From Hanleya hanleyi (taxonomy: Eukaryota; Mollusca; Polyplacophora; Lepidopleurida; Hanleyidae), in contig JAVTVY010017181.1 in NCBI GenBank assembly GCA_036873755.1, positions 248,001 to 312,000 of the forward strand: DNA of 64,000 bases. The letters are read 5' to 3'. The position numbers and the translations under genes were made by a program. Shown piece by piece: positions 1,110 to 64,000 of this stretch (positions within the stretch are counted from its first letter, which is position 1; every line of letters starts with the position of its first letter). The notes below the pieces were generated by a model. That model was not told where the DNA came from. It did no database searches and saw only the letters and a program-made list of their open reading frames with translations.

Positions 1110-1400
1110 TTAAACTTTCATGTCCCTTTCTCGTTTTTGTAAATTCTGTAAATTGCAACACCAGGTTGACCATGTGATGATCAGATCTGTAACTGGGTAG
1201 AATATCTGTTTTACTAATTGTATGTATAGAATTTCTGAAGACAAAAGTCCAAATGTGCCCGTTTCATCGGGTTTGACTGTCGCCAGGTGTATCTCTGAAT
1301 GTCGAGGTGATGCTCTATCCAAAGGCCGACTAAATCCAAGTATTCAATCAGTTGATTGCTCCATTCTATTAAATTTTGAACAGCGGAGACAATATCTGAT
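1110..1400 (-). pseudogene. LINE AP-endonuclease, C-terminal half (broken)
   Basis: Minus-strand translation reads YLDLVGLWIEHHLDIQRYTW and then RQSNPMKRAHLDFCL, the usual C-terminal APE block of L1/Tx1-type LINEs. It is followed in another frame by PSYRSDHHMVNL, which carries the catalytic SDH triad end. A stop after FCLQKFYTYN and a frame change separate the two parts. The region abuts the 40-bp minisatellite at 1,401, and the two sides of the array join as one endonuclease reading. Confidence 0.8.
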
Positions 1401-3734
1401 TATCTGTGTTGGGTGCATACAATGGAGGTATTGTGAGAGCTATCTGTGTTGGGTGCATACAATGGAGGTATTGTGAGAGTTATCTGTGTTGGGTGCATAC
1501 AATGGAGGTATTGTGAGAGTTATCTGTGTTGGGTGCATACAATGGAGGTATTGTGAGAGTTATCTGTGTTGGGTGCATACAATGGAGGTATTGTGAGAGT
1601 TATCTGTGTTGGGTGCATACAATGGAGGTATTGTGAGAGTTATCTGTGTTGGGTGCATACAATGGAGGTATTGTGAGAGTTATCTGTGTTGGGTGCATAC
1701 AATGGAGGTATTGTGAGAGTTATCTGTGTTGGGTGCATACAATGGAGGTATTGTGAGAGTTATCTGTGTTGGGTGCATACAATGGAGGTATTGTGAGAGT
1801 TATCTGTGTTGGGTGCATACAATGGAGGTATTGTGAGAGTTATCTGTGTTGGGTGCATACAATGGAGGTATTGTGAGAGTTATCTGTGTTGGGTGCATAC
1901 AATGGAGGTATTGTGAGAGTTATCTGTGTTGGGTGCATACAATGGAGGTATTGTGAGAGTTATCTGTGTTGGGTGCATACAATGGAGGTATTGTGAGAGT
2001 TATCTGTGTTGGGTGCATACAATGGAGGTATTGTGAGAGTTATCTGTGTTGGGTGCATACAATGGAGGTATTGTGAGAGTTATCTGTGTTGGGTGCATAC
2101 AATGGAGGTATTGTGAGAGTTATCTGTGTTGGGTGCATACAATGGAGGTATTGTGAGAGTTATCTGTGTTGGGTGCATACAATGGAGGTATTGTGAGAGT
2201 TATCTGTGTTGGGTGCATACAATGGAGGTATTGTGAGAGTTATCTGTGTTGGGTGCATACAATGGAGGTATTGTGAGAGTTATCTGTGTTGGGTGCATAC
2301 AATGGAGGTATTGTGAGAGTTATCTGTGTTGGGTGCATACAATGGAGGTATTGTGAGAGTTATCTGTGTTGGTATTGTGAGAGTTATCTGTGTTGGGTGC
2401 ATACAATGGAGGTATTATCTGTGTTGGGTGCATACAATGGAGGTATTGTGAGAGTTATCTGTGTTGGGTGCATAATGGAGGTATTGTGAGAGTTATCTGT
2501 GTTGGGTGCATACAATGGAGGTATTGTGAGAGTTATCTGTGTTGGGTGCGTACAATGGAGGTATTGTGAGAGTTATCTGTGTTGGATGCATACAATGGAG
2601 GTATTGTGAGAGTTATCTGTGTTGGGTGCATACAATGGAGGTATTGTGAGAGTTATCTGTGTTGGGTGCATACAATGGAGGTATTGTGAGAGTTATCTGT
2701 GTTGGGTGCATACAATGGAGGTATTGTGAGAGTTATCTGTGTTGGGTGCATACAATGGAGGTATTGTGAGAGTTATCTGTGTTGGGTGCATACAATGGAG
2801 GTATTGTGAGAGTTATCTGTGTTGGGTGCATACAATGGAGGTATTGTGAGAGTTATCTGTGTTGGGTGCATACAATGGAGGTATTGTGAGAGTTATCTGT
2901 GTTGGGTGCATACAATGGAGGTATTGTGAGAGTTATCTGTGTTGGGTGCATACAATGGAGGTATTGTGAGAGTTATCTGTGTTGGGTGCATACAATGGAG
3001 GTATTGTGAGAGTTATCTGTGTTGGGTGCATACAATGGAGGTATTGTGAGAGTTATCTGTGTTGGGTGCATACAATGCAGGTATTGTGAGAGTTATCTGT
3101 GTTGGGTGCATACAATGGAGGTATTGTGAGAGTTATCTGTGTTGGGTGCATACAATGGAGGTATTGTGAGAGTTATCTGAGTTGGGTGCATACAATGGAG
3201 GTATTGTGAGAGTTATCTGTGTTGGGTGCATACAATGGAGGTATTGTGAGAGTTATCTGTGTTGGGTGCATACAATGGAGGTATTGTGAGAGTTATCTGT
3301 GTTGGGTGCGTACAATGGAGGTATTGTGAGAGTTATCTGTGTTGGGTGCATACAATGGAGGTATTGTGAGAGTTATCTGTGTTGGGTGCATACAATGGAG
3401 GTATTGTGAGAGTTATCTGTGTTGGGTGCATACAATGGAGGTATTGTGAGAGTTATCTGTGTTGGGTGCATACAATGGAGGTATTGTGAGAGTTATCTGT
3501 GTTGGGTGCATACAATGGAGGTATTGTGAGAGTTATCTGTGTTGGGTGCATACAATGGAGGTATTGTGAGAGTTATCTGTGTTGGGTGCACACAATGGAG
3601 GTATTGTGAGAGTTATCTGTGTTGGGTGCACACAATGGAGGTATTGTGAGAGTTATCTGTGTTGGGTGCATACAATGGAGGTATTGTGAGAGTTATCTGT
3701 GTTGGGTGCATACAATGGAGGTATTGTGAGAGTT
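1401..3734. repeat. 40-bp minisatellite, about 59 units, grown inside the LINE endonuclease
   Basis: Head-to-tail units of 40 bp, starting tatctgtgttgggtgcatac and ending in ttgtgagagt. Most units are identical. Three consecutive short units (24, 31 and 38 bp) lie at about 2,361-2,480, and single-base variants occur near 2,550, 2,585, 3,077, 3,180, 3,310, 3,591 and 3,631. On the minus strand one unit reads TIPPLYAPNTDN, the conserved endonuclease block that would be expected between the flanking LINE segments. The array therefore appears to be an in-place expansion of LINE coding DNA. Forty is not divisible by three, so the open frames across it are not genes. Confidence 0.97.
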
Positions 3735-3735
3735 A

Positions 3736-7269: not shown

Positions 7270-8600
7270 TTGGAATGTTCTAATGACAAAATTTCAAGGT
7301 CGCAGCTGGTTAATGAACAGCATAGTGACAAGGACATTTCCAAGTTGTTTGACAGGGCAGTAGATGAGTGTGATGTAACTCAAGAGCCTGTGTGTTACTT
7401 TTGTAAGATTGGTGTTCTTATGCGCAAATGGCGACCGCCAGATGTGTCACCTGATGATGAGTGGGCAGTTAAGTATCAGATTGTGGTACCAAAGTCATAT
7501 CGTTCAGATATCCTCAGACTAGCCCATGAGATGCCTCTTTCGGGTCATTTGGGTGTTGATCAAACCTATTACAAAGTTTAAATCGTTTCTGTTGGCCAAA
7601 TTTAAAGAAAGATGTTGCGGAACTTTGTAGGTCATGTCATACATGTCAAATGGTAGGAGAACCAAACCAAACCATACCAGGGGCCCCTCTGCAGCCAATC
7701 CCTGCATTTAAGGAAGCATTTAGAAGGGTGATTATAGATTGTGTTGGTCCATTGCCAAAAACAAAGTCAGGCAATCAATACATGTTAACAATCATGTGTG
7801 CTTCAACCAGGTTCCCTGACGCCATTCCTTTACGGAATATTAAGGCAAAAATTATTGTTAAGGCCTTAGTTAAGTTTTTCACATTTGTCGGCCTACACCA
7901 GTCTGTTCAGTCTGATCAGGGATCTAATTTCATGTCAGGAATTTTTCAACAAGTCATGCATGAATTGGGAATAAAGCAGTATAAATCATCTGCATACCAC
8001 CCAGAAAGCCAAGCCGCATTAGAAAGATTCCACCAGACATTAAATAACATGATTAGGACTTATCGTTTTGACACCGAGAAAGACTGGGATGAAGGCATAC
8101 ATTTGTTATTGTTTGCTGTTAGAGAGTCTGTTCAAGAGTCTTTAGGCTTCAGTCCATTTGAATTAGTCTTTAGTCTTTAGTTAGAGGACCACTTAAATTG
8201 CTGAAGGAAAAGTTCCTAGACAGTGATCTTGACTCATGTAGTCTCTTACAATATGTGTCGGATTTTCGCACCAGGTTGACTAAAGCACGTGATTTGGCCA
8301 TGTCAAATTTAATGTCAGCACAAAAAGGTATGAAAATAACCTATGATAAACATGCCCTTGGGCGAAGTTTCAAACCTGGTGAGAAGGTACTGGGTTTTCT
8401 GTCTATTCCTGGTAATCCACTTAAGGCTAGATACTATGGTCCTTATGTCATTGAAAAGAAATTAAGTGACCTTAATTATGTAATTCAGACAGGCGTAAAC
8501 AACAACAGTTATAAATGTCATGTAGATATGTTAAAGTTATACATAGACAGAGATAGCACTAACAGCACTGTACAGCCTGTAAGTGTAGTTAGTTCTGACC
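7270..8600 (+). pseudogene. Integrase of the Gmr1-like element (frameshifted)
   Basis: HHCC zinc domain: HEMPLSGH at about 7,530, then CRSCHTC at 7,630-7,650 after a frameshift near 7,578. Catalytic core: VIIDCVGPLP (first D), QSDQGSNFMSG (second D), HPESQAALERFHQTL (E), about 7,720-8,045. A stop near 8,180 is followed in another frame by the C-terminal domain with YYGPYVI, the GPY/F module, at about 8,430. Integrase lies upstream of RT here, which is diagnostic. The intact enzyme joins element cDNA to the host chromosome. At least two frame breaks inactivate it. Confidence 0.93.
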
Positions 8601-16625: not shown

Positions 16626-17293
16626 ACGGCTTCTTTTCAAGTTCTTAGCAGAGTCCAGTATCAGCTCCGTGTCTTTTATCATGGCTAGAGTAACTATGAT
16701 CGCTGGGGTGGACCGTCCAATTGTGAGCTAAGAACTAATGGATAACGGGGCGGGAGTTGGCAATCAGCAAACATCATTCGGTCAACCGCATTTGAGTCAA
16801 TTTCATGAATGCTCTGAAGTGATCGCCTTGGTGTCTTCACGCACCGATTCTACTGTAACACCATAAATGCGCATTGTACAGTAGGTTTTCTTCAAGAACC
16901 CGAATATTATCCTGATGTTCCTCACGTCTTTCGGTTATCGATTCATTTTTTAGTTTTTCAAAATCGCCAATTTGAGAATCAAGAGCGCGGGATTGTTCCT
17001 TTATTTGTGATTGTCATGATAGAACATCTTCCGACCTGCCCGAATTCACGTGACTGGAACTATTTCATAATGTATGCTCACCTCACCTCTCCTTCAAACT
17101 CACTTCTACGTAGTTTATATACTACTAACCAAGTGCGCATCACTTCATCGCATTACTCACAAACATCCCTGAATATGTTCAGACCAGTACCAAAGTCACT
17201 GGGCCGGAATTCTCGCACTTGCGCCTTCTCACGCCAACCCAAATCCACACTGTATATTATTGGCGGCCAATTGAAATTGCCCTTATATGGAAT
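16626..17293. other. No gene seen
   Basis: Flank between the 25-bp repeat and the palindromic element. The last six bases before 17,294 are TGGAAT, the candidate left target duplication. Confidence 0.5.
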
Positions 17294-17459
17294 AGTAGTA
17301 TATAAAGGGCCAATTGGGTCCCATTGACCTACTTTTGTGGAGGTCATCGGTGACGTCACAAAGGTCAAAGGTCAAATCCGGGTCAAAGGTCACTTCCGGT
17401 CCCTTGACCTTTGTATTCTTCCGCGGTCATGCGGTCGCTTCCGGCGGTGCTGCGGTCGC

Positions 17460-18310
17460 TTCCGATTCTGCGCATGCGCAGTGGAGAAGGGTATGGAAAT
17501 AGACGTTTTGGGGTCTAGGTGGACCACTAGTGGTCCGATGGATTCGAGTGAGGTATCAATGTAAAGCATGCATGGAGGAGCATGCGCCTGGACTAGTGCG
17601 TTGTTTGTTTTCAACATTTCGCGCATGCGCAGACAGGGAATTGTGGAAAAATGGTATGGAAATAGACGTTTTGGGGTCTAGGCGGGCCACTAGTGGTCCG
17701 ATTGCATCAAGTGAGGTATCATTGTAAAGCATACGCGAGGGAGCATCCGAAGTAAGGGGGGTGACGTGGAACAGACGTCATGCTGCGCATGCGCAGTAGA
17801 CAAAGTATATGGAAATAGACGTTTTGGGATCTAGGCGGGCCACTAGTGATCCGATGGAGTGGAGTGAGGTATTATTGTAAAGCATACGCGAGGGAGCATC
17901 CGACGGGATGGGTGTGACGTCATTCTGCGCATGCGCAGTAGAGAAAGTGTATGGACATAGACGTTTAGAGAACGAGAGGGGCCACTGGTGGTTCGATTGA
18001 GTCGTGAGAGGTATCATCTTGTAGCCCTCGGGGTGTAGACCACGATGTTAGGGATGTCCACGTCATTTGTGACGTCATTGATGACGTCATTAGTGGGAGT
18101 AGTTCTGGGGGTGTGAAAGGAGTTGTTTGGGGTGGAGAGGGACCATCAGTGGTCCGAAAGGGTCGTGGGAGGTGTCAAAGTGAAGCCCTCGTGGAGGTAC
18201 ATCCGACTGGACTAACATCTTGTTCGGTTTCATCATTCTGCGCATGCGCAGTCTGGCCGTAGTATAGAAAGCAGGCATTTTGGGGGTTCTTTTGGGGTAG
18301 AGAGGGATCA
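17460..18310 (+). repeat. Left-arm subterminal array, about 155-bp units
   Basis: Units contain ctgcgcatgcgcag (17,468; 17,783; 17,925; 18,238; a variant at 17,620), then a block with atagacgttttggggtctag, ccactagtggtcc, a gtgaggtatcattgtaaag block and often TGACGTCA. TGCGCATGCGCA fits the NRF1 recognition pattern and TGACGTCA a CRE/ATF site. Whether they act as enhancers is inference. Confidence 0.85.
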
Positions 18311-18425
18311 ATGGAGCTCCGGAGCTCTTGGAGCTCGGAGCTCGGAGCTCTGGAGCTCTTGGAGCTCCGGACGTTGACGGGCGTCAACGCCCGCAGCTTC
18401 GAACTTCAAGAGCTCCGGAGCTCCG
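18311..18425. repeat. GAGCTC-rich palindromic patch, left arm only
   Basis: A cluster of ggagctccggagctcttgg-type sequence with an inner gacgttgacgggcgtcaacg hairpin. The right arm has only tggagccggagccac at the corresponding place, so this is an arm-specific insertion or expansion. Confidence 0.8.
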
Positions 18426-18692
18426 TGGACCGAACCACTGCTCGGTAACCCGTGAGTGAATTAACCACGGTCGCATGCTGTAAAATGCGAGTCGCATAGG
18501 GATGGGTCCCCGTCATGGCTCTGCAACCATAGGAATGGGGGTGTGGGGTCCAGAGGGACGTGTTAGACCATGTTACACATGCGCGTCTACACGTAGCTCT
18601 ACGTGTGTAGTCCGTGATAAGTACTATTCTGATTGGTTAGTCCAAAAAGAGAGCAACAACAACAACAACAACACAGATTACAGGTCAATCCT

Positions 18693-18698
18693 TTTATT
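18693..18698 (-). terminator. PolyA signal of the left zinc-finger gene
   Basis: AATAAA on the minus strand, about 140 bp past the stop codon, matching the right-arm signal at 20,861-20,866. A (CAA)n tract follows. Confidence 0.75.
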
Positions 18699-18834
18699 AG
18701 CCCCTCCATCACAGCACATCCACGCTGGGGGAATCGCTATGGGTGTGTTTACAATTCACTTATGCTATTGTCCGCGTATTCGGATGTTCATTGTGCTGAT
18801 CTCAGACCTCTCTTGTCCAATCAGAAGCCGATCC

Positions 18835-19362
18835 TCAGAAGAAGTATAAGTCATGTTGACGGCTGGAACACAAACTGTGGACGTCTTTCGGATTGATGGG
18901 GATCAACTGACTGTGGAGTCTGAAGACTCGACTGCAATGCTGGCATTCATGGCTGGGTGCCTTATGTACCGACCGTTGATGTCGCCGTAAATTATCCTTA
19001 CGATTAAAGGACTTCCTGCAGACCGAACACGTATACTCGCCAACAGCACCTTGAAAAGTAGACTCATGGATGGGGTCAAACATCCCGGGTTCCTCAACCC
19101 TCAAGCGTGCATGTCCATGGATTACACGTTGGTGAGATCTCAATTGGCTGTGTAGTCTGAAGCGGTGTCCACAATCCCCACATTGATGCCTGGATGTCTC
19201 ATGGAGACACCGTTCATGGCGGTGTAAACTATCCAGGCGATTAAATGTATCCCCACAGGTCTCGCAGGTGTACTGGGCAGTAGCGTCGTGGATGCTAGAC
19301 TCATAGCGTTGTAAGTCGTGCAAGCGTGTAAAGGACTTGGAGCAAGTGGTACACGTGAACAT
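18835..19362 (-). CDS. C2H2 zinc-finger protein, left-arm copy, 175 aa
   Basis: A compact single-exon gene, ATG at 19,362. Four zinc fingers of pattern C-X2-C-X12-H-X4-H lie at residues 4-25, 33-54, 61-82 and 112-133, and a fifth (C140, C143) lacks the first histidine. In this copy finger 1 has Tyr at residue 20 where the right copy has the zinc-binding His, so finger 1 is probably lost. A 29-residue linker separates fingers 3 and 4. A TATA box lies about 55 bp upstream and a polyA signal about 140 bp downstream. It is 94% identical to the right-arm protein (10 differences) and divergently oriented. The role is unknown; DNA binding to the repeated sites in the arms is a guess. Confidence 0.88.
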   Translation of the reverse strand: MFTCTTCSKSFTRLHDLQRYESSIHDATAQYTCETCGDTFNRLDSLHRHERCLHETSRHQCGDCGHRFRLHSQLRSHQRVIHGHARLRVEEPGMFDPIHESTFQGAVGEYTCSVCRKSFNRKDNLRRHQRSVHKAPSHECQHCSRVFRLHSQLIPINPKDVHSLCSSRQHDLYFF

Positions 19363-19413
19363 CGTGGCGTGAGTGGTTGAACGATTGTCTGCTGAAAGTG
19401 TCAGGCCGCTTCC

Positions 19414-19421
19414 CTTTTATA
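19414..19421 (-). promoter_or_regulatory. TATA box of the left zinc-finger gene
   Basis: TATAAAAG on the minus strand, in the context GCTATAAAAGGGAAGCGG, identical to the right arm. Confidence 0.8.
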
Positions 19422-19512
19422 GCAAGCTAGCTGTTGATCTATTTTTAGAACACTCAGTTCAACTACCCCCAAGTCGAGGACCGAGATGTACTGGTGTACG
19501 ACTGAGTCGCAT

Positions 19513-19700
19513 TGCGCGCGCGCGCGCGCGTGTGTGTGTGTATGCATGTGTGCGTCTGTGTGTATGCATCTGTGTGTATGCGTGTACGTGTGTGTGTGTG
19601 TGCGTGTGTGTGTGTGTGTGTGTATGTGTGTGTGTGTATATGTCTGTGTGCATGTATGTGTGTGTGTGTGTGTGCGTGTGTGTGAATGCATGTGTGTGTG
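19513..19700. repeat. (GT)n tract with (CG)n start, left of core
   Basis: Alternating purine-pyrimidine sequence: a gcgcgcgcgcgc run, then GT repeats with CG and CA interruptions. Together with the right-hand tract it forms a Z-DNA-prone bidirectional core between the two promoters. Confidence 0.95.
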
Positions 19701-19900
19701 TTAACTATCCAGGCGATAGCCCGTAGGGCATAGGGTACACCAGGGTGCGGATGCACCAGGTATGTATGTGTGTGCGTGTGTGTGCGCCTGCGTACGATGA
19801 CGTCACTACCGAGTAGCGCGGGGTCAAAGGTCACTTCCGGACTATAGGAGCACTTGTGAACGTGTTGATTTTTTTCTCGCATCTGTCTTTATCATGGCAC
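19701..19900. other. Single-copy spacer at the palindrome centre
   Basis: About 200 bp not shared between arms. It contains taactatccaggcgat, close to part of the zinc-finger coding sequence near 19,226, and ggtcaaaggtcacttccgg, as in the outer arm ends. It looks assembled from element pieces. Confidence 0.6.
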
Positions 19901-19904
19901 ACGA

Positions 19905-20046
19905 CGACACACACACACACACATGCACACAGACGTATACACACATACGCATACACACACCCACGCGTACACACACCACACATACACAGATGCATACACA
20001 CAGACGCACACATGCATACACACATACACGCGCGCGCACGCGCGCA
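19905..20046. repeat. (CA)n tract with (CG)n end, right of core
   Basis: Mirror of the left tract: ACACAC-type repeats ending in a CG-rich run before aatgcggctcagtcgtacac. Confidence 0.95.
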
Positions 20047-20137
20047 ATGCGGCTCAGTCGTACACCAGTACATCTCGGTCCTCGACTTGGGGGTAGTTGA
20101 ACTGAGTGTTCTAAAAATAGATCAACAGCTAGCTTGC

Positions 20138-20145
20138 TATAAAAG
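20138..20145 (+). promoter_or_regulatory. TATA box of the right zinc-finger gene
   Basis: TATAAAAG, 59 bp upstream of the ATG. Transcription would start near 20,168. Confidence 0.8.
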
Positions 20146-20196
20146 GGAAGCGGTCTGACACTATCAGCAGACATTCGTTCAACCACTTACGCCACG

Positions 20197-20724
20197 ATGT
20201 TCACGTGTACCACTTGCTCCAAGTCCTTTACACGCTTGCACGACTTACAACGCCATGAGTCTAGCATCCACGACGCTACTGTCCAGTACATCTGCGAGAC
20301 CTGTGAGGATACATTTAATCGCCTGGATAGTTTACACCGCCATGAACGGTGTCTCCATGAGACATCCAGGCATCAATGTGGGGATTGTGGACACCGCTTC
20401 AGACTACACAGGCAATTGAGATCTCACCATCGTGTAATCCATGGACATGCACGCTTGAGGGTTGAGGAACCCGTGATGTTTGACCCCATCCATGAGTTTA
20501 CTTTTCAAGGTGCTGTTGGCGAGTATACGTGTTCGGTCTGCAGGAAGTCCTTTAATCGTAAGGATAATTTACGGCGACATCAACGGTCGGTACATAAGGC
20601 ACCCAGCCATGAATGCCAGCATTGCAGTCGAGTCTTCAGACTCCACAGTCAGTTGATCCCCATCAATCCGAAAGACGTCCACAGTTTGTGTTCCAGACGT
20701 CAACATGACTTATACTTATTCTGA
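20197..20724 (+). CDS. C2H2 zinc-finger protein, right-arm copy, 175 aa
   Basis: Single-exon gene, ATG at 20,197. Fingers at residues 4-25, 33-54, 61-82 and 112-133 all keep both cysteines and both histidines with H-X4-H spacing; the fifth (140-162) lacks its first His. Finger 1 is intact here (His20). It differs from the left copy at 10 of 175 residues, including 29, 32, 37, 72, 78, 93 and 101. It has its own TATA box and an AATAAA at 20,861. Both frames have stayed open at 94% identity, which argues that they were functional until recently. No BTB, KRAB or other domain is seen, so the fingers are the whole protein. Confidence 0.9.
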   Translation: MFTCTTCSKSFTRLHDLQRHESSIHDATVQYICETCEDTFNRLDSLHRHERCLHETSRHQCGDCGHRFRLHRQLRSHHRVIHGHARLRVEEPVMFDPIHEFTFQGAVGEYTCSVCRKSFNRKDNLRRHQRSVHKAPSHECQHCSRVFRLHSQLIPINPKDVHSLCSRRQHDLYLF

Positions 20725-20860
20725 TGGTCGGCTTCTGATTGGACAAGAGCAGTCTGAGATCAGCACAATGAACATCCGAATACAAGGACAATAGCATAAG
20801 TGAATTGTAAACACACCCATAGCGATTCCCCCAGCGTGGATGTGCTGTGATGGAGGGGCT

Positions 20861-20866
20861 AATAAA
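20861..20866 (+). terminator. PolyA signal of the right zinc-finger gene
   Basis: AATAAA in gctaataaaagg, about 137 bp past the stop codon, before a (GTT)n tract. Confidence 0.75.
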
Positions 20867-21029
20867 AGGATTGACCTGTAATCTGTGTTGTTGTTGTTGT
20901 TGTTGTTGTTGCTCTCTTTTTGGACTAACCAATCAGAATAGTACTGCAGCCACAAAGCCATGTGGTACGCATGGCATGATCTGCTCACTCTGAACCCCAC
21001 ACCCCATTCCTCGGTTGCAGTGGCTCCGG

Positions 21030-22060
21030 CTCCAATGGTCCCTCTCTACCCCAAAAGAACCCCCAAAATGCCTGCTTTCTATATTACGGCCAGACTGCGC
21101 ATAATGATGAAACCGAACATGTTTGTTCAGTCGGATGTACCTCTACGAGGGCTTCACTTTGACACCTCCCACCAGTGATGGTCCCTCTCTACCCCAAACA
21201 CTTCCTTTCACACCCCCAGAACTACTCCTACTGATGACGTCACCAATTACGTCACAGATGACGTAGACATCCCTGAAATCGTGGTCTACACCCCGAGGGC
21301 TACAAGATGATACCTCTCACGACTCAATCGAACCACCAGTGGCCCCTCTCGTCCCCTAAACGTCTATGTCCATACACTTTCTCTACTGCGCATGCGCAGA
21401 ATTACGTCAGTTCTACGTCAAACCCATCCCGCCGGATGCTCCCTCGCGTATGCTTTACAATAATCCCTCACTCGACTCCATCGGACCACTAGTGGCCCGC
21501 CTAGATCCCAAAACGTCTATTTCCATATACTTTGTCTACTGAGCATGCGCAGAATGACGTCAGTTCTACGTTTCAGCCATACAGTCGGATGCTCCCTCGC
21601 GTATGCTTTACAATGATATCTCACTCGACCCAATCGGCCCAATAGTGGTCGCTTTCGGCCCCAAAACGTCTATTTCCATACACTTTCTCTACTGCGCATG
21701 AGCAGAAGAGAAGTCAGTTCCACGTCACACCCCTTACTTCGGATGCTCCCTCGAATATGCTTTACAATGATACCTCACTTGGTGCAATCGGACCACTAGT
21801 GGCCCGCCTAGACCCCAAAACGTCTATTTCCATACCATTTTTCCACAATTCCCTGTCTGCGCATGTGCGGAATGTTGAAAACAAACAACACACTAGTCCA
21901 GGCGCATGCTCCTCCATGAATGCTTTACATTGATACCTCACTCGACTCCATCGGACCACTAGTGGTCCACCTAGACCCCAAAACGTCTATTTCCATACCC
22001 TTTCTCCTCTGCGCATGCGCAGAACCGGAAGCGACCGCAGCACCGCCGGAAGCGACCGCA
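21030..22060 (-). repeat. Right-arm subterminal array, about 155-bp units
   Basis: Reverse complement of the left array, with ctgcgcatgcgcag motifs (for example 22,009-22,022), ccactagtgg, gacgtctattt-type blocks and TGACGTCA. Some units carry single-base changes in the palindromic motif, such as gagcatgcgcag near 21,541. Confidence 0.85.
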
Positions 22061-22202
22061 TGACCGCGGAAGAATACAAAGGTCACGCGACCGGAAGTGA
22101 CCTTTGACCCAGATTTGACCTTTGACCTCTGTGACGTCATCGATGACCTCCCCAAAAGTAGGTCAATAGGACTGAATTTGCCCTTTATATACTACTTGGG
22201 AT

Positions 22203-22714: not shown

Positions 22715-23487
22715 GTAATTTTTAAAGAAATATGACGAAAACATCACTTTTCTGGTACCCCCACATGGCCACCATTTTGAATTTACCGTCTGACTTAAAA
22801 TCATGTTTATCTCAGTCACTTTTCAAATTTCGAATGAAAATTTACTTGTTTTCTGAATAGTCTATCCATTTAAATTTCGAAGGCGTATTCATATTATATT
22901 TTCACATTTTGCCACCTTTGCACACACTGACATCATTTTCTTGGCCATCAATCGCTCCAATACTGACCTTGAGACACACTTATTTTATGTAAAACACGTG
23001 TACCTTATCAATTTCACAAAGCCCTATCTTATATATTTAGTTTAGTTCAAATGTAGTTAGTTAACAACTATAGAGCTGGGTGCATCACCATTGTTAATTC
23101 ACATATTTATATTTGAGAGTATCTTCAGCTCCTATTGTCTTATTTTCGAGCTGGTATAATCACTAACAATTATTATTTTATGGGATATAACAAGCCCTCT
23201 GGGGTTTTATTCCCGCCATATTTTTATTTATTCACATACCATATCTCTGTCTTTATTTATATATGGTGAATAAACAATCAATCAATCAATCAAATCAAAT
23301 CCTCTGCTCGGGGGGTCATGCAAATAGGCTCAAAATGACTCCAATATGATAATCTAATAAGTCACGGAGTTTCAGTTCTCAATTTTTTGTCGTTCCGGAG
23401 ATAGGAGCGAAAAACCAACAGGGAGGGGGGGTGGGGGTGGCGGAAAGTGCCCCCCCCGCCCCTCCCACCCGGGCCAAGTACGGTTAA
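22715..23487 (+). mobile_element. piggyBac-like MITE, 5'-truncated and interrupted copy
   Basis: Matches the 11.4-kb copy from about aaagaaatatgacgaaaaca to gaatttacc at 22,787, then resumes at cctctgctcggggggtcatg near 23,301 and ends with gccaagtacggttaa at 23,487. The 510 bp between ends in an (ATCA)n tail. Confidence 0.8.
22788..23300 (+). mobile_element. Insertion with (ATCA)n 3' tail inside the MITE
   Basis: It splits the MITE at a clear joint. It finishes ggtgaataaacaatcaatca and more ATCA units, a tail typical of non-LTR elements. No coding sequence is recognisable. Confidence 0.6.
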
Positions 23488-23509
23488 GAAGTAGAGAAGA
23501 CTGGAGCGG

Positions 23510-24360
23510 TGGACCGTTGATATTGATACGCGCATGCACACTGGGCAGTGGAAAAAGGGGCGTGTTCCCAGGAGATCAGACGCACGGTGTGGATTGTATG
23601 GACTTTTGTGCAAAGTGTATACAGTGTAGAGTCATTCCACATCAAGCAGTCAGAATGGACGCATCACTGTGATGGTACAGGTCACGTGACTAGGACATCA
23701 TAGTAGCAGAAAATTGGTTGCTCGGTTGTGCACTTGGGATTAGATGCCTACCTATATCTTCATACGCTATAGCCCTATGGATGGGCATGTGGGAGTGAAT
23801 GAGCTATCGTTGTTCACAGGATCCTGGCTAGCATGAGGCGGGTGGTATGCGCACGCGCACTGGGGGAGTAGTAGAGCAAGGGCATGTTTGGGTGCGCAGG
23901 GGACTGTCTGGATAGATGTGGGTCATTGATTGGCAATGTGGCATATATGGTGTCGTAATGGCGCTCTCGTTGAGTAGAAGCAGTTGAGTCTCGCTTAATA
24001 CGCGCATTAGTACTTGGGAAACAAAGGAAGATGCGCATGCGCACGCGGGTCGTAGTAGAGAAAGGGCATTTTCCCTAACAAAACGCTGGTTATTATGGCC
24101 AAATTATCCATATATAGTGGTACAGATGTACAATGGTTTTACAACACATCCCACACCGCAATCCCACTCTCGTGTTATTGGGTCGACTCATGCATGATAT
24201 TGAAGGGTGTGAACGCCCCTTGGCACCCCTCTATCTGAGAGAGAGAGGCAAAGAGAAAATCATCAACAACAAGCATATTGCGTTTTCCACATTTTATTTC
24301 CCCTTGTATTACAGCACACCGAAGCTGGGAGCCGCCTATGGTGTTTTCAAATAACAAGAT
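23510..24360 (+). mobile_element. Remnant of an element related to the palindrome
   Basis: Three diverged subterminal units carry gcgcatgcacac (23,533), tgcgcacgcgcac (23,848) and tgcgcatgcgcac (24,032), each followed by gtagtagagaaaggg-like sequence as in the palindrome arms. At 24,265-24,355 a caacaacaa run, ttttatttcccc and a cagcacaccgaagctgggag block align with the polyA/3' block at 18,655-18,755. No zinc-finger gene follows. Confidence 0.65.
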
Positions 24361-24863
24361 GAGATAGTTGCATTGTTCGACTATCAGACGGATCGTCGAC
24401 CATGTGCAGTTTGTCTAATGCAACGTGACTATAAGTGACGTCTTCACCGGAAGTCGCGCGTCCGGAAGTTGCATAAGAGAAACTAGAAGAAAAGGTAAAC
24501 TGAGCATGAGAAACCGGATGTGGGAAACCTGAAATCGGCACATACCGCAAGTCTCCAATGCGCATGTTCAATATACCTTTTCTCCCGTTTCTGTACTACT
24601 GATGTTATTTGTTGTTAATTTCACATTTATTCTCGCAATAGATATGGGATATAAAACACATTCAATCCTCTTGGATTCATCTCTGATCCATATCATTAAT
24701 AAAGGTTTCTCTTGCACTGTATTTCTTCTTGCTTATATATATTTTGTCTACTCATACCGCAATACTGACTCATTTTCTCAGAGACCCGACACAATATGTT
24801 CTGCATATAGCAATGTTGTTTTGCTGTCGTGTTTACACTTCAGTATAACACGATATTAGTGAA

Positions 24864-25338: not shown

Positions 25339-25866
25339 GGTTGCTGTTAATGACTAGAGGCCTACTGGCCAGCGCATAATTTTTATGGATACAGCATTAT
25401 GGACGCTTACTGTTAATGATTAGAGGCCTACTGGCCAGCGCATAATTTCTATGGATACAGCATTATGGACGGTTACTGTTAATGGCTAGAGGCCTACTGG
25501 CCAGCGCATAATTTCTATGGATACAGCATTATGGACGGTTACTGTTAATGGCTAGAGGCCTACTGGCCAGCGCATAATTTCTATGGATACAGCATTATGG
25601 ACGCTTACTGTTAATGATTAGAGGCCTACTGGCCAGCGCATAATTTCTATGGATACAGCATTATGGACGGTTACTGTTAATGGCTAGAGGCCTACTGGCC
25701 AGCGCATAATTTCTATGGATACAGCATTATGGACGGTTGCTGTTAATGGCTAGAGGCCTACTGGCCAGCGCATAATTTCTATGGATACAGCATTATGGAC
25801 GGTTACTGTTAATGACTAGAGGCCTACTGGCCAGCGCATAATTTCTATGGATACAGCATTATGGAC
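25339..25866 (+). repeat. 66-bp satellite, eight near-identical copies
   Basis: The anchor aggcctactggccagcgcat recurs every 66 bp from 25,358 to 25,820. Only the base after aatg (gactag, gattag, ggctag) and ttgc/ttac/cttac positions vary, in a pattern suggesting recent amplification of unit blocks. Confidence 0.97.
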
Positions 25867-30512: not shown

Positions 30513-33500
30513 GTATAGGTAAATGTACCTCCAAGGACAATTCCCTTATAGATTATGTTCTAGCCAACCCAGACGCATTAAGTAAAATATCAGATTTTAA
30601 TGTCCATGATTTTGATCCGATGCTCTCCGATGTCCATTGTGCTATTAGTTTTAGAACAGTATTTCAAAAATACGAAACTGAAAAAAACAATGTAAACTTG
30701 TCTGGTGAATCTAAAGTTTATTCGAAGAAATGATCAAAACAATGTGGAGATCACATCATTAAATTTATTGACAGAGATCGAATATTGGCCATGCAAGCAA
30801 CAATGAATGAAGCTTTACGCTAGTGAAAACATTGGTCAGCAACTATTAGACGAATGTTGTGAAACACTTGAACATTTATTTAAGGATAGTCTGGATAAAT
30901 GTAATAACAATATCAACACTAATAACGCTGATAAACCTAGTCACAAACATGAGAATATACATAAGCCATTCTTTAATAAAGAATGTAAGACAGCAAGAAG
31001 AAAATACCATTTAGCTCGAGAACTCTTCAGCAACAATAAGAATCAACAAAATAAAGAAGCGATGATAAGTCAAAGTAGACAATATAAAAAGATATTAAAC
31101 AAACAGATGAAGTTATACAAGAAACAATTCCAGACTAAATTACGTAATTTGAGCAAACGCGATCCGAAAACGTACTGGAAAATTCTGAATGCTGATAAGA
31201 GCAGTAAAGACAACAATAATATTCCTATGGATATACTCTTAGATTTCTTTAAAGATCTCAATGCTGGAGATGTAAATAATGAAGAGGATGACAATATCCT
31301 TCCTAACTCAAACAACATCGAAAGTAATGACATGTTAAATAGAGAAATTAGTGAACTTGAAATTAGTGAAGCGGTTAGGTCCCTGAAAAATAATAAAGCG
31401 ACTGGTTACGATGATATTCCAAATGAATTCAGTTATTGCCAATAGATAAAATTATGTTCAATTGTGTATTATCAAGTGGAAATGTTCCACACAAATGACT
31501 GCTAGGAATCATCAAACCTATATATAAAGGAAAGGGTGATAAGGATGACCCAAATAACTACAGGCCTATCACACTGCTGAGCTGCTTGGGAAAAAAGTTT
31601 ACATCTATTATTAATAGCAGACTAAATGAATTTATAGAATCCAATGGTATACTTAATGAAAATCAAACAGGGTTTCGAAAAGAGTATTCGACCTCCGATA
31701 ATATTTTGTTGTATATGCCCTTGGAGAACTACGAAAAGCAAGAAAGAGGAAACTGTTCTGCACGTTTATCGATTTTGGGAAAGCATTTGATACAGTGTGG
31801 CGACATGGTCTTTGGCAAAAATTACTGAAATATAATATTTCAGGAAAAATTTTCACTGTGATTTTCAATATGTATTCTAGCATTAAATCATGCGTATTAC
31901 ATAACGAACAAATATCAGAATTCTTTCCCTGTAATATTGGAGTTCGACAAGGAGAAAATTTGTTGCCAATACTTTTTTCTTCATTTATAAATGATATTGA
32001 AGATTTTCTTTTGGAAAACCACTGTTCTGGTGTCGACATGAGCGAGTTAAATGACACTCTGTTTTCGTACGTTAAAATATTAGTTCTGTTGTACACCGAC
32101 GATACTATCATTATTGCCAACAACGAGAAAGATCTCCAAAATAGCCTAAATATTTTCAATTGTGAAAGTGGAAGTTGCGTATTAACACCGCTAAAACTAA
32201 AATAGTGATATTTGGAGCCAGACTGATTGGAAAATTAAGATTTTCCATTGGAAATGATAATATAGAAATAGTTGATCAATGTAAATACCTTGGATTTGTA
32301 TTTTCCCAAAGCAGAAGTATTATGTACTCAATGAAATCTGTTATTGACAGTGCTGGTAGAGCTCTGCTCTTACTCTACAGCAAAATAAGAAAATATAATA
32401 TACCGATAGATCTTCAGCTTCTTTTATTCGATAAAATGATTGTTCCAATCTTGTTGTATGGGTGCGAGGTTTGGGGGGTAGCAAATACGAATTTAGTAGA
32501 GAAATTTCATCTGAAATTTTTGCGAAAAATATTGTGTGTCAAAAGTAGTACTCCACTATACATGGTTTATGGTGAACTTGGGCGATACCCTATGATTATT
32601 TTAATCAAGAAAAGAATGATTAGTTTTTGAGGCAGAATTGTTCTCGGTGCCGAAAGGCCAAAGTTGTCAAATATTCTGTATACTTATGTTGTCAGATGTT
32701 GATCATAATGTATACCAACATAAGTGGATTATTTCTATTAGAAATATATTTGGGGAAACGGGTATGAATGATATCTGGTTAAAGCAGAACACACGTAGAC
32801 TGAAACCCACCAAAACTAAAATAGAGCAAAGATTAAAGGATCAGTATTTTCAGTTTTGGCTCGCCAGCTCTTCAAATTCATCAAAAGGTTCGTTATATTC
32901 AAAATTTAAAGAAAGTATTTATTTAGAGAATTATCTTTTAATTTTGGACGAAAAGATAAGAATAGCCTTTACTAAATTCAGAACCACTAATCATAGATTT
33001 CCCGTTGAGATTGGACGTTGGAGTAATACACCAAAGGGAGAGAGACTATGTGAACCCTGTGACCTTAATGCGATTGCGACGAGTGCCACTATTTACTTGT
33101 TTGTCCTTTTCTTGAAGACACGAGGAAAAAATACATTAATGAGTATTATACTAGGTACCCTAATCCACAAAAACTAAGTTACCTTTGTAAAACTAAATAT
33201 GTACCTAAATTAGTCAAAGTTGTAAAATTCATATGGCATATTATCAGGGTATTTAATGAAAGATCACGTTAATCATTACTGTGGGTATTATAACCATAGA
33301 CTAAGTTACAGTTACTCAGTGCTCATTGATATTCACTTTTAATGCTGATTATATATTCCTTCGGGCTGTTTTTCTCGTCGCCTTCCAGTTTTCTCCCTCT
33401 TCATAACATTTTTTTTATTGACCAAGGTGGGTAATCAATTTCAGTTGTCTTCCACTGTCCATTGAATATTCCTTGATTGTTATTATGAGGTATATTGAAT

Positions 33501-51200: not shown

Positions 51201-54200
51201 ATGCGCATGTGCGAGGTGCTCTGCATATTTAATACGCATGTGGATTCATTTGATGGATTGAAGTAGTACGTGAATATGGCGAAGATTCTTTAACGAAATT
51301 CAGGTAACCTGCTCATACTTTTGTGATACATAACTTCCGGTCATTACATTACTTCCGGTGATGACACTACTTTTGCTGATTACGTCAATTCCATTAATAA
51401 CGTCACTTCGGGTGAACCTTATCCTGATGATCGTCTGGCGTCCAAAAGTGTCCGGCTCCTATCTTCTAACCCATGCAGATAGGGCAGTTTTCTCCACATT
51501 TGCAACTAAGGACGGAGAATTAGCCCCAAACAAAAACACACTAATTCCCAGGTGATCCTTCGCTATCACGCCTATACTATGACTGAAAAAATGCTGAATG
51601 CGACGTTAAAATCCGTTTCCCCACTCCTATACCATGTTAGCCTGCACGTTAAGGTACACGCTTAAAACTAAAGTGTTGAAACTTACTCGTAAAGTGTTGA
51701 AATAACCTTTTAAGTCTGTCCATAGGGACTGCTCTTTAAGTGTGTCCCTGTGGAGGGTTATTTCCACACTTTACGAGTAAGTCTCAACACTTTAGTTTTA
51801 AGCGTGTACTAGTTACTTACCTGATGCCACCATATAGGCGTCTCCGATCGTTTCCACCTTGTAGACATCGTATTGCATTATACGGCCATCAAACATACTG
51901 TATAGGCTGTTTAACATGTTGATCACTTGGACCGGGGAACATTGCGCCGAAATTTTAGTGAAACCCACAATATCAGAGAAAAAAATGGTCACTTCTGGGT
52001 AAGTCTCGGCGTTCACTTCCTCGTTTCGTTTCAGTTGCTCGGCGACGCTTCTCGGCAACATCTGGTACAATAAGAGATCGGTCCTCTTCTTTTCAGTCTT
52101 CAGGGCCTTCGTACTGAAACGAAGATTCGCATATGTCAGTCAGTTGAGTCAATTGTAAGTTTGAGTTTCCCATTCTGGGCGAACGTCATATAAGTTGACC
52201 AGAAATCGGAAACACGAAAAGGAATTCATACCAAAATACAATGTACTCGACTTGTATTGATACATTCCCATGGTGAGTCAAATTATCTAAAAGCATATTT
52301 CCAACAGTTCCTATAGAGATTGAGGTTTGAAAGGTAGTAGCACCCTTAGTTCAGAACTTTCGCATTTTCTCCATAGCCCATAGCGGCTCAGAGCCAAATT
52401 GTACCTGGGCAGGCCTACAAATAGAGAAAACGAGAAATTCCCAATTCAGTAGCACTCTTCAAAACCTGATCGTTGTCTTGTACATGAGTTACGTATGCCC
52501 GATAGTATTACAGAATATAGAAGGCTATATACCGAGACAACAAAATAGGTTCTTAAGTAACCCTTTCTCTCTGAGAGTGTAGTAAGATATTACCGGGCGG
52601 AGAGCGTGATGGAATAACCCTGCATCTCAGTAGTTAATGAGTAGACGCCGTGGATGATCACCGGACACATAAGTAATACACCCGAGAAGACGACGGCAAT
52701 GACGATCATCTTATACAAGTCTTCTTGGTCACGCTCGTCCAGTTCAACAAAGATAGAAGATACGACGGCATCCTGTGTATTCATCAACACCTGAAGGTAG
52801 CTTGTCACCGTTGCCATCCAGTACTCCGCCTTATGGACAAGAAATATTTTCATATTTACGATCCTATTAACACGATATTAAGAAAAAGGCAATACAAGGC
52901 TAAATCATACTGCGATATTTAGAGTATCTATCTCAAGTCGGTCGGTGGGGCCCTCGGTGGCCGAGTGGTCTAAGGCGCTTCGCTGGTGACCGCTAGCCTC
53001 ACACCGCTGAACCGGCACGGGTTCGAGCCCAGCTGGTCCATGTGTGAAAGTTTGTCAGTTACTTGCCGAAGGGCGGTGGTTCTCTCCGGTTACTCCGTCT
53101 TTCTCCACCAACCAAACTGACTGTCACCATATGAGTGAAACAAACTTGAGTGTGACATTAAGCCAAATTCCCTCCCTCCTCCCTCCCTCCCTCAAGTCGG
53201 TCTTAAAACATAGCCTTATTGTCATTCGAGCGTGCCACCATTTTGGCTGGTACGAAAGTACGTCATGCATTTGTGTATTTCACTGTATGATTAACGCAAG
53301 CGTCATCATAATATCGCTTCAAGCTCTTCAACTTCAGGAATAAAAATGACTTAATTCTCCATCCCTCTCCGATGACAAATGGATTACTCCAAGGAATTGC
53401 GCGTTATGTAGCTACTAAATGTTCAAGGGATGAGGTCACTGAGTGGAATTAGGTTGACTGGCTTATTTCTATTCTTGTAAAGAATAGAGATAAAGATAAA
53501 GAGAAAAAAAACAAAACAATTATTCGACAATCACTGGGTAGTTTTCACTTTCTTTTGCCGTATAGTTTTTCCAAGTTTTGTCATTCCTACTTAGAATAAA
53601 TATAGTTATAAGTGGGGTCACGCCTATAATATGTGGCCGCCATTAGCGCTCGACACAACGCTCCAGCGGTTTGAATTTACCTCATCTTTACCGTTCAACT
53701 CTAAAGTTATACCTCTGCCAATTTATTGTCTCGTGCGCTTATGGCGACCGCTTATTTTAGTCATGACCTGACTTGAATAACGTACCAGTAGTATAAAAGT
53801 TGGCTTTGTCTGTTATATGGTTAATTCATCTAGATCAGTATCACCTATCACGGGGCTAATATATACTTAGTTTTACTTTCAAATTCAGTTGCGATGAAAT
53901 TACCTTATCAAAGGACCCTCGTCGATTGGACTGCTCATTCACACGGATGTCTCTCCGCATGTCCTCCAAGATGCCCACGATGGTGTCGTTCTTGGCCACA
54001 AGGTCGTCATAGATTGCTGACGCTACGTCAGAGAAGCGTCGAGCCGACCAGAAAGACGCGTTGGCGATGTCCTGACTCTCGGAGAACCACAAATAATCTT
54101 CAATGGAAGGGAATTTGCCTTTGGTGTAATAAATCGCACCCAAAGCTCTTTCGATTCCAAAAGACTTCTTGGATTCTGTGATTTCGAGAAAGGCGACCAG

Positions 54201-61590: not shown

Positions 61591-62015
61591 TTATTAAAGT
61601 GAATGCACAGAGCAGTAGTATATAAAAGACCGCATCCCTCACATTTGGTTCAGTGCGCATGCTCGAGAAAGTTTCTGTCATGGGGAGGTGTGCGCAGGAG
61701 TTGTGCGCAAGTATGACGTCACTTCCGGTTTTGTGGAGGTTTTGTGGAGGTCATGAGGAGGTGTGCGCAGGAGTGTTCTGCGCAGGTATGACGTCACTTC
61801 CGGTCTGCGTGAATCGGGCGTCACCTTGGGGCATGTATTCCTCCGCGGTGATGCGGTCTAGCGGTGATGCGGTCTGCCTCCACGGACAGTCCCAAATACG
61901 TGGGTTTTCGTGAGAATGTTCGGCAATCTTCAGGGGCGAGAGGGGCCCCTAGTGGACTGATTGGGTCGAGTGAGCTGTCAAAGTAAAGCGCTCCTCCAGG
62001 GCCATTCAGTCATGG

Positions 62016-62335: not shown

Positions 62336-62913
62336 TTAGGGTACTCATCTTACATCCGGGTTTTTGTAGGTTACTGCGCAGGTCATTGTGGTGGGTCTGC
62401 GCAAGTGTGTGACGTCACTTCCGGTATTGAGAATGACCAGAAGAAAAAAAATACCTCCGAACACAGAATAGTTCCAATTTTTCCTTAGACCTTAGACGTA
62501 TAGTCCGGATTTTCCACCCGGGTTTTCCCAGGCCCGGACCGGCCGCACGCCTGCGCAGGTTATCCGGCCGCACGCGCGCGCGGGTTAAAGGGAAGTTTCG
62601 GAAGTGTGCAAGGGCACTATATCACATCGGGGTATATATTTCATCCAAGTATAGCGGAAAGCGGTTGTCGTGAGTAACAACAAGTTCAGCAATGTTTATA
62701 CAGTTTATGATCCCCAATGTGACATCATACCCAGGCTGGGGGAGCCGCCCTGGGCATGTTTAGTATGTTCACAGCAAAACAAATTGAAATATCAAACACC
62801 ATGTTTTATTATTTAACGCACCGTCACATTAGGTACAAGTGTTTACTGAGCTCAAGTCAACGATCAGCATGTAGACATAGACAGTATATACGGCATGTTA
62901 TGTATGCTATTCA

Positions 62914-63366
62914 TCAGTGCAAGGGTGACGCATTCAGCCGATGGGGGTGGTCGGTCAGCTTGGTAACGAAGAACGTAACATTGGTGACCCTCCCTACGAC
63001 CCATTGTGTGTTGCGGCGTTGACGTTGGGGCCATCTCAAGGGATCCACGGTGTCCAGTTTGTCCAGCATCGTCTATAGCGACGCCCGGTTAATGATGGTG
63101 AACGGTTGGTCAAACACATGGCTGTTATTACTGGCATAATAATACCGTAACTGGTCCGTCTCTTTGTGACGTAAGATGTACCCAAAAGCGACATTCAATT
63201 TGAAGACCGTAGCTTGGTCATTGAAGATGGCTTTCACGTAGCTGCGTAGACGGGCGAGGTCGGTCAGTGGGAAATTGTAGATATCTGGAACAATTTCTGG
63301 AATTGGATCACGGTGGAAACTGTGCCGTATCATGGGGTTAACTAGAAGACTATTCTGTGAAGTCAT
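62914..63366 (-). pseudogene. Unknown element gene, interrupted by TAG and a frame slip
   Basis: ATG at 63,366 opens 97 codons: MTSQNSLLVNPMIRHSFHRD, then LRSYVKAIFNDQATVFKLNV and GYILRHKETDQLRYYYASNN. A TAG at 63,073-63,075 stops it, but clearly coding text continues in frame (TMLDKLDTVDPLRWPQRQRR, then TNVTFFVTKLTDHP at about 62,944-62,985), where one extra C changes the frame; the slipped frame ends at 62,914. From memory it resembles an uncharacterised protein found beside DNA polymerase genes in large eukaryotic DNA elements. That is unverified. Read-through of the TAG is possible but decay is simpler. Confidence 0.55.
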
Positions 63367-63422
63367 GTGACGCAGTCAGTATGTCGGCACCTCTTCCCAC
63401 TTCCCTTATATGTGTTGTAATT
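63336..63422. repeat. 87-bp direct repeat, copy 1
   Basis: From ggttaactagaagactattc to atgtgttgtaatt, identical to 63,845-63,931. It holds the start codon of the minus-strand gene and a ttatatgtg segment that may be its promoter. Confidence 0.95.
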
Positions 63423-63844: not shown

Positions 63845-63931
63845 GGTTAACTAGAAGACTATTCTGTGAAGTCATGTGACGCAGTCAGTATGTCGGCACC
63901 TCTTCCCACTTCCCTTATATGTGTTGTAATT
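63845..63931. repeat. 87-bp direct repeat, copy 2
   Basis: Exact copy of 63,336-63,422 at a distance of 509 bp. The ATG of this copy is followed by a stop after ten further codons. It is next to tggcgccgatagatg. Confidence 0.95.
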
Positions 63932-64000
63932 GGCGCCGATAGATGTCACTCACTGGAAGGGCGTCCTGTAACAGATCGCTAGGAACATCCACTGCATCTT

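Follow-up and report, generated by a model that had tools for sequence, protein, structure and literature searches.

A near-palindromic 4.9-kb element with a zinc-finger gene in each inverted arm, a probable foldback-type transposon in the mollusc Hanleya hanleyi

We analysed 64,000 nucleotides of the genome of the mollusc Hanleya hanleyi (contig JAVTVY010017181.1, positions 248,001 to 312,000; hereafter the window), in which a near-palindromic element of 4.9 kb occupies positions 17294–22196. Global alignment resolved it into two inverted arms of about 2.3–2.4 kb each, joined by a GT/CA-rich centre, and each arm holds one outward-reading, 175-codon frame of the C2H2 zinc-finger type with an upstream TATA box and a downstream AATAAA. 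An initial annotation of this DNA had described arms of about 2.4 kb, each with such a gene, and the repeat search, the alignment and the frames all agree with that description. We consider it probable that the element is a foldback-type DNA transposon of the non-autonomous kind, inserted by an enzyme supplied in trans, and that copy-back synthesis lengthened its inverted repeats until they included a complete gene.

Very long terminal inverted repeats (TIRs) form most of the element, as in foldbacks. Among the best (longest) 25 of the 79 inverted pairs found by a mechanical repeat search, the main one joins 18654–19580 to 19979–20905 (927 nt, 97% identity); further arm pairs measure 293 nt (96%) and 239 nt (94%), and the outermost, of 198 nt (93%), stops at 17294 and 22196. 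Both ends terminate in the same 13 bases, AGTAGTATATAAA, at 17294–17306 on the plus strand and, inverted, at 22184–22196 on the minus strand, and palindromy stops there. Beyond these ends, the flanks compared as ungapped inverted copies match at 44 of 200 positions, which is about the chance level. The sequences adjoining the ends are unrelated except for TGGAAT on the left (17288–17293) and TGGGAT on the right (22197–22202), a candidate target-site duplication (TSD). Terminus and flank comparison thus bear out the matching ends and 5/6 flanks of the initial annotation. Six is the best among flank lengths of 2–12, and longer flanks match worse (4/7, 3/8, 1/9 and 1/10). When 20000 pairs of window positions were drawn at random, 0.7% did as well at length 6, and 1.7% had a comparable TSD-like match of any kind. 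The motif search of the window found four exact copies of AGTAGTATATAAA, two on the plus strand (17294 and 61614) and two on the minus strand (17114 and 22184), and a fifth with one mismatch, where 0.16 copies are expected at no more than one mismatch.

Although palindromes are known to give rise to chimeric reads, we consider an artefact of assembly or of fold-back sequencing very improbable here: a folded-back read would invert the flanks too, whereas palindromy ends at a terminus common to an independent element (described below), and the arms differ by substitutions, indels and one repeat unit. The initial annotation had also argued against an artefact, from the divergence of the arms; its conclusion stands, and the non-palindromic flanks are the better argument for it.

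From the outside inwards, each arm consists of a flanking domain, tandem repeats of about 155 bp and an inner domain with the gene, with a non-palindromic core in the middle of the element, so that the flanking domain, internal tandem repeats and middle domain of a foldback are all present. The left flanking domain (17294–17486) contains AGGTCA, TGACGTCA and ACTTCCGG motifs and differs from the right one (22004–22196 by arm alignment) at 12 of 193 positions. In the left array (17487–18251), part of which carries NRF1-like and CACTAGTGG motifs, five units were detected, starting at 17487, 17650, 17808, 17945 and 18126; arm alignment and repeat detection place the right array at 21307–22002, also with five detected units, from 22002, 21839, 21685, 21527 and 21379. 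One right-arm unit of about 153 bp is extra in the arm alignment, and the left unit at 18126 had no right-arm match at E 1e-5. The alignment also leaves a GGAGCTCC-rich stretch of about 200 bp (~18325..18530) in the left arm without a right-arm counterpart.

The arm motifs, which resemble host promoter sites (NRF1, CRE and ETS), are concentrated in the element. Eight NRF1-like sites lie in it, one of these in the centre, against two near the third relative described below, none in the second element and none in the other 55.6 kb. TGACGTCA occurs 8 times in the element, 3 times in the second element and 7 times in the rest of the window, and CACTAGTGG gave 11 position calls in the element, a count in which a palindromic motif core may be called on both strands. 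The means expected from 200 Markov simulations were 0.01 for NRF1-like sites, 0.16 for TGACGTCA and 0.07 for CACTAGTGG.

Sequence reading and a repeat scan place the GT/CA-rich centre at 19530–20029, and the core lies inside it at 19701–19900. Positions 19821–19840 of the core are an exact 20-bp copy of 17380–17399 in the flanking domain (E 6.7e-5), and positions 19703–19717 a 15-bp copy of 19227–19241 in the gene (E 0.035). We read a core that contains such arm pieces as a putative repair or replication junction. A bacterial promoter scan of the centre was uninformative.

The frame list, Pfam and the comparison of the two copies delimit the left gene at 18835–19362 (minus strand) and the right gene at 20197–20724 (plus strand). 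Exact matches to the TATA box TATAAAAGGGAAG precede them at 19409–19421 (minus) and 20138–20150 (plus). The 3' parts, which differ at 6 of 181 positions, extend over 18654–18834 (minus), with AATAAA at 18693–18698 on that strand, and over 20725–20905 (plus) by sequence reading and arm alignment, with AATAAA at 20861–20866. In both proteins the only Pfam matches above the curated cutoffs are C2H2-type fingers. As the initial annotation counted, 10 of the 175 residues distinguish the twin proteins; in finger 1 of the left copy, Tyr at position 20 replaces the first His, a zinc ligand. All ten coding nucleotide differences are non-synonymous and none is synonymous (108 synonymous and 417 non-synonymous sites), and ten random substitutions altered ten residues in 5.4% of 20000 simulated runs (stops counted). 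Both frames are indeed open, as had been stated. This is weak evidence of function, because the frame survived ten random substitutions in 69% of 20000 runs. Nothing points to constraint on the protein after the two arms diverged. We considered selection acting on both copies of the gene and find it unsupported: each of the ten differences alters an amino acid, and the left copy has lost a zinc ligand. A structure prediction from the two-sequence alignment placed helices at residues 14–28, 43–55 and 122–132, in a model too weak to rest on (mean predicted local distance difference test score 47.2, predicted template-modelling score 0.23).

A second family member, of which the window contains the left arm only, starts at 61614 on the plus strand and continues past the window end at 64000. 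The initial annotation had made its reading depend on other copies with the same ends, and this is one: it shares the exact 13-bp end, related arm blocks and an outward gene. The blocks follow the same order in both elements (17333–17567 against 61740–61989; local score 107–108, largest of 15 shuffles 39), and BLAST pieces likewise link the two arms. Frame reading shows its outward gene (62914–63366, minus) to be broken into two open pieces (63073–63366 and 62914–63069). Its TATA-like sequence is CATATAAGGGAAG, compared with TATAAAAGGGAAG in the zinc-finger genes, a likeness that chance can explain, since 7 of 100 shuffles reach the observed 6 matches at two mismatches. The two gene loci have a 3' block in common (18651–18759 and 62672–62772, score 58), whereas the coding part of the second gene differs from the zinc-finger gene. 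The second element also contains an 87-bp perfect direct repeat (63336–63422 and 63845–63931), which carries the TATA-like CATATAAGGGAAG.

A third, degenerate relative is represented by a copy of the family's conserved 3' gene block at 24250–24355 on the minus strand (score 68, largest of 15 shuffles 49). The surrounding region, 23480–24600, has two NRF1-like sites together with this block and no clear ends. These results come from eight region and strand comparisons with 15 shuffles each, of which two exceeded every shuffle; the minus-strand comparisons of the two positive regions did not, and neither an upstream region (scores 30 and 37, shuffle maxima 36 and 38) nor a control region (43 and 30, maxima 44 and 37) gave a relative. 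In comparisons with 100 shuffles each, the left part of the third relative matched the left arm of the element (58, null maximum 49), and it matched neither the right arm (42, maximum 46) nor the second element (29, maximum 37). Its right part, reverse-complemented, matched neither the left part of the same relative (28, against a null mean of 26 and a maximum of 38; 100 shuffles) nor the left arm of the element (27, maximum 36) nor the second element (23, maximum 40). Judged by these sequence likenesses, the second element and the third relative show that the element belongs to a repeat family, and the pairing of a repeat-rich arm with an outward gene seems to be a trait of that family, judging from two loci with genes and one with a remnant. 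The initial annotation mentioned neither of these two loci nor the opposite-strand end at 17114.

That end (17114–17126) is an exact copy of the 13-bp terminus, 167 bp to the left of the element, and no arm is recognisable behind it (scores 26, 27 and 26 against null maxima of 39, 38 and 40; 100 shuffles each). Closer to the element, the left flank at 17272–17288 (TGAAATTGCCC-TTATAT) is similar to the right end of the element, with a score of 13, reached by none of 974 other 60-bp windows (maximum 12), and is possibly a remnant of another end.

The copy-back reading would start from a parent with a compact outward gene (TATA, coding sequence and 3' block) beside a terminal arm, as the broken second element still has. 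During gap repair or replication of the element, synthesis would have run inward across one arm and its gene until a template switch in the GT/CA-rich stretch made it copy back, turning the opposite end into an inverted copy of the first. The whole gene would thereby have come to lie inside the TIR, with the core as the patched junction, in a product that retained the family ends and subterminal repeats. An enzyme encoded elsewhere in the genome would then have inserted it, duplicating about 6 bp (TGGRAT). We further infer that the zinc-finger protein may bind the subterminal repeats of the family in an accessory or repressor role. The initial annotation had proposed either a head-to-head duplication of a DNA element or terminal repeats grown over its gene; this is partly supported, in that repeat growth over the gene fits the anatomy.

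Several observations weigh against this explanation. No transposase is linked to these ends in the frames scanned (see below). Within the window the palindromic layout is seen at one locus only, the right end of the second element lying beyond the window, and the candidate TSD is a 5/6 match at a single locus with a chance level of 0.7–1.7%. The 15-bp match in the core lies within the reach of chance at its E of 0.035. Finally, the inner parts are less diverged than the outer arms (21/863 against 34/663, Fisher p 0.006). The divergence of about 6% given in the initial annotation is not uniform: it is 1.9% in the open reading frame (ORF; 10/528), 3.2% (5/154) and 3.3% (6/181) in the 5' and 3' parts of the gene, and 6.2% (12/193), 3.4% (9/262) and 6.2% (13/208) in three outer segments, which were picked as gap-free, so that the indels and the left-only stretch lie outside these counts. 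The ORF does not differ significantly from its own flanks (p 0.26). A single event followed by uniform drift is thus insufficient, and later gene conversion or unequal rates would be needed.

The same divergence bears on another origin, in which ectopic exchange or end joining of two inverted family members would have put already diverged halves head to head. Such a recombination product would account for arms that differ by 3.4–6.2% in the outer segments as well as in indels and repeat number. We judge it improbable, since the near-matching 6-bp flanks would then be a coincidence (0.7–1.7%) and the lower inner divergence is not what a simple join predicts.

The case for copy-back and mobilisation in trans rests on the foldback domain plan and on a view of foldback origins relayed in the accessible part of a report on Tetris, a foldback of Drosophila virilis (PMC4079207): foldbacks may come from various transposon lineages by loss of the transposase and elongation of the TIRs. 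According to that part, Tetris has TIRs of up to 1,735 bp, made of a flanking domain, repeats of about 220 bp and inner and middle domains, and is non-autonomous, a copy with a transposase not having been found. By description, our element is like Tetris in its long TIRs, its domain plan and its non-autonomous character. The three structurally complete copies of Tetris are reported without conserved ORFs, whereas here each arm has an open gene, and its TSDs are of 8–9 bp (9–10 bp in rearranged copies), whereas the one here looks like 6 bp. The same source suggests the Mutator superfamily for most foldbacks; here flanks of 8–10 bp match at 3/8, 1/9 and 1/10 and the scanned frames gave no transposase family match.

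Galileo of D. willistoni, a member of the P superfamily, offers a second comparison by description (PMC4168063, in its accessible part). Its TIRs grow by tandem repeats of about 140 bp and by taking in sequence from inside the element: in one copy they recruited an ORF part longer than 500 bp, and one 9,021-bp copy consists of TIRs only (4,246 and 4,680 bp). The likeness lies in TIRs extended by tandem repeats and ORF sequence. Galileo, however, took in parts of its transposase ORF, whereas here both arms contain a complete other gene with promoter and polyadenylation signal. Its TSDs are of 7–8 bp, against flank matches of 4/7 and 3/8 here, and no P-type transposase was matched in the scanned frames. 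The statement in the initial annotation that no described transposon has such a layout was thus too strong: as far as these sources go, Tetris and Galileo share the domain plan and the TIRs of Galileo recruited ORF sequence. The literature covered here, which did not include subscription papers such as the first Polinton paper, yielded no foldback in which each arm contains a whole gene.

It is also possible, though on the unlikely side, that the element derives by truncation from a virus-like, self-synthesising one of the Polinton/Maverick or adintovirus type. Protein-primed replication of a broken linear genome would have rebuilt the lost end from the surviving one, and the resulting short, nearly all-TIR genome would have been integrated with a TSD of 6 bp. 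Background in favour of this explanation comes from ends that begin with AG and from the long palindromic genomes of defective adenoviruses. Two gene loci with a similar TATA region and 3' block and different coding parts are what a compact multi-gene element might leave, but the promoter likeness alone is within chance (7/100 shuffles). The available parts of the literature give 6 bp as the characteristic TSD length of Polintons (PMC10045372; 5–6 bp in PMC8547959) and report that truncated endogenous mavirus-like elements (EMALEs) regenerate their TIRs (PMC8547959). The likeness to EMALEs is that short derivatives of long linear elements keep TIRs, and the likeness to Polinton/Maverick elements lies in the TIRs and the 6-bp length of the candidate TSD (PMC10045372, PMC6431247, PMC10175614). 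However, 6-bp TSDs are also known from IS3EU and GingerRoot (PMC10045372). EMALEs, moreover, reside in a flagellate genome, have virophage genes and mostly 3–5-bp TSDs (PMC8547959), whereas no virophage gene was found here, and Polinton/Maverick elements are reported at 10–40 kb (PMC10045372, PMC6431247, PMC10175614), against 4.9 kb and no Polinton gene found here. The signs of a Polinton origin are no more than suggestive, and because no Polinton gene was found we do not claim membership. By analogy, the element is not a new category, Galileo and the truncated virophage-like elements being precedents.

The searches bear on both explanations. None of the 13 frames of at least 80 aa that overlap the element matched a PolB, integrase, ATPase, protease, capsid or transposase family in Pfam, and neither did either piece of the broken gene in the second element, whose other short frames were outside the scan. 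Eleven of the 13 frames had no Pfam match above cutoff, the other two being the zinc-finger frames; weak hits among ten other frames of the element, to Cmc1 (E 0.074) and PH_CAYP2 (E 0.062), were far below the cutoffs and were taken as chance. Both gene pieces of the second element were without a Pfam match at E <= 0.1, and no relative of them was detected, which counts against the virus-like origin; the 97-aa piece had no match in the protein search, none in viral contigs and none by sequence in the PDB. The protein search with the zinc-finger protein returned five word-sharing candidates, none with E <= 0.001. In viral contigs the same query gave six stretches; the one confirmed, to a phage contig, was short, was attributed to chance and was rejected. 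Viral contigs gave no match to the patterns FKxNxxFGxI and WVVxxVTNVTF or to the 17-base terminus, and the 15 stretches from the genome contig collection included no relative. These absences from the contig collections say little about animal transposons, because those collections are viral and prokaryotic.

Broader still, and put forward tentatively as rather unlikely, would be an undescribed animal family of virus-like transposons, in which modular outward genes, alike in promoter and 3' block and unlike in their coding parts, stand beside host-promoter-like subterminal repeats; the present copy would then be a palindromised genome with a whole gene in its terminal repeat, inherited as two copies per element. 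Returning to the foldback reading, if other copies exist, growth of foldback terminal repeats can engulf an entire gene with its promoter and polyadenylation signal, and one insertion brings two gene copies in a palindrome. Such copies would also allow a direct test of foldback origin, copy-back repair against replication of broken ends. With arms rich in host-promoter-like motifs, such insertions would be candidate regulators of host genes.

The whole window gave no Rfam match. Outside the family members it contains a 40-bp tandem repeat array with about 57–58 units and a strong G skew (1400–3735) and a 66-bp tandem repeat in eight copies with 96% matches (25339–25866). A frame with a retroviral-type integrase core at 7650–8180 (rve, E 1.9e-11) is probably the remains of a long terminal repeat retrotransposon, and a reverse transcriptase fragment at 31795–32205 (RVT_1, E 5.8e-10) is probably LINE-like (long interspersed nuclear element). 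A NIT-domain protein frame lies at 53856–54785 (Pfam NIT, E 4.1e-23).

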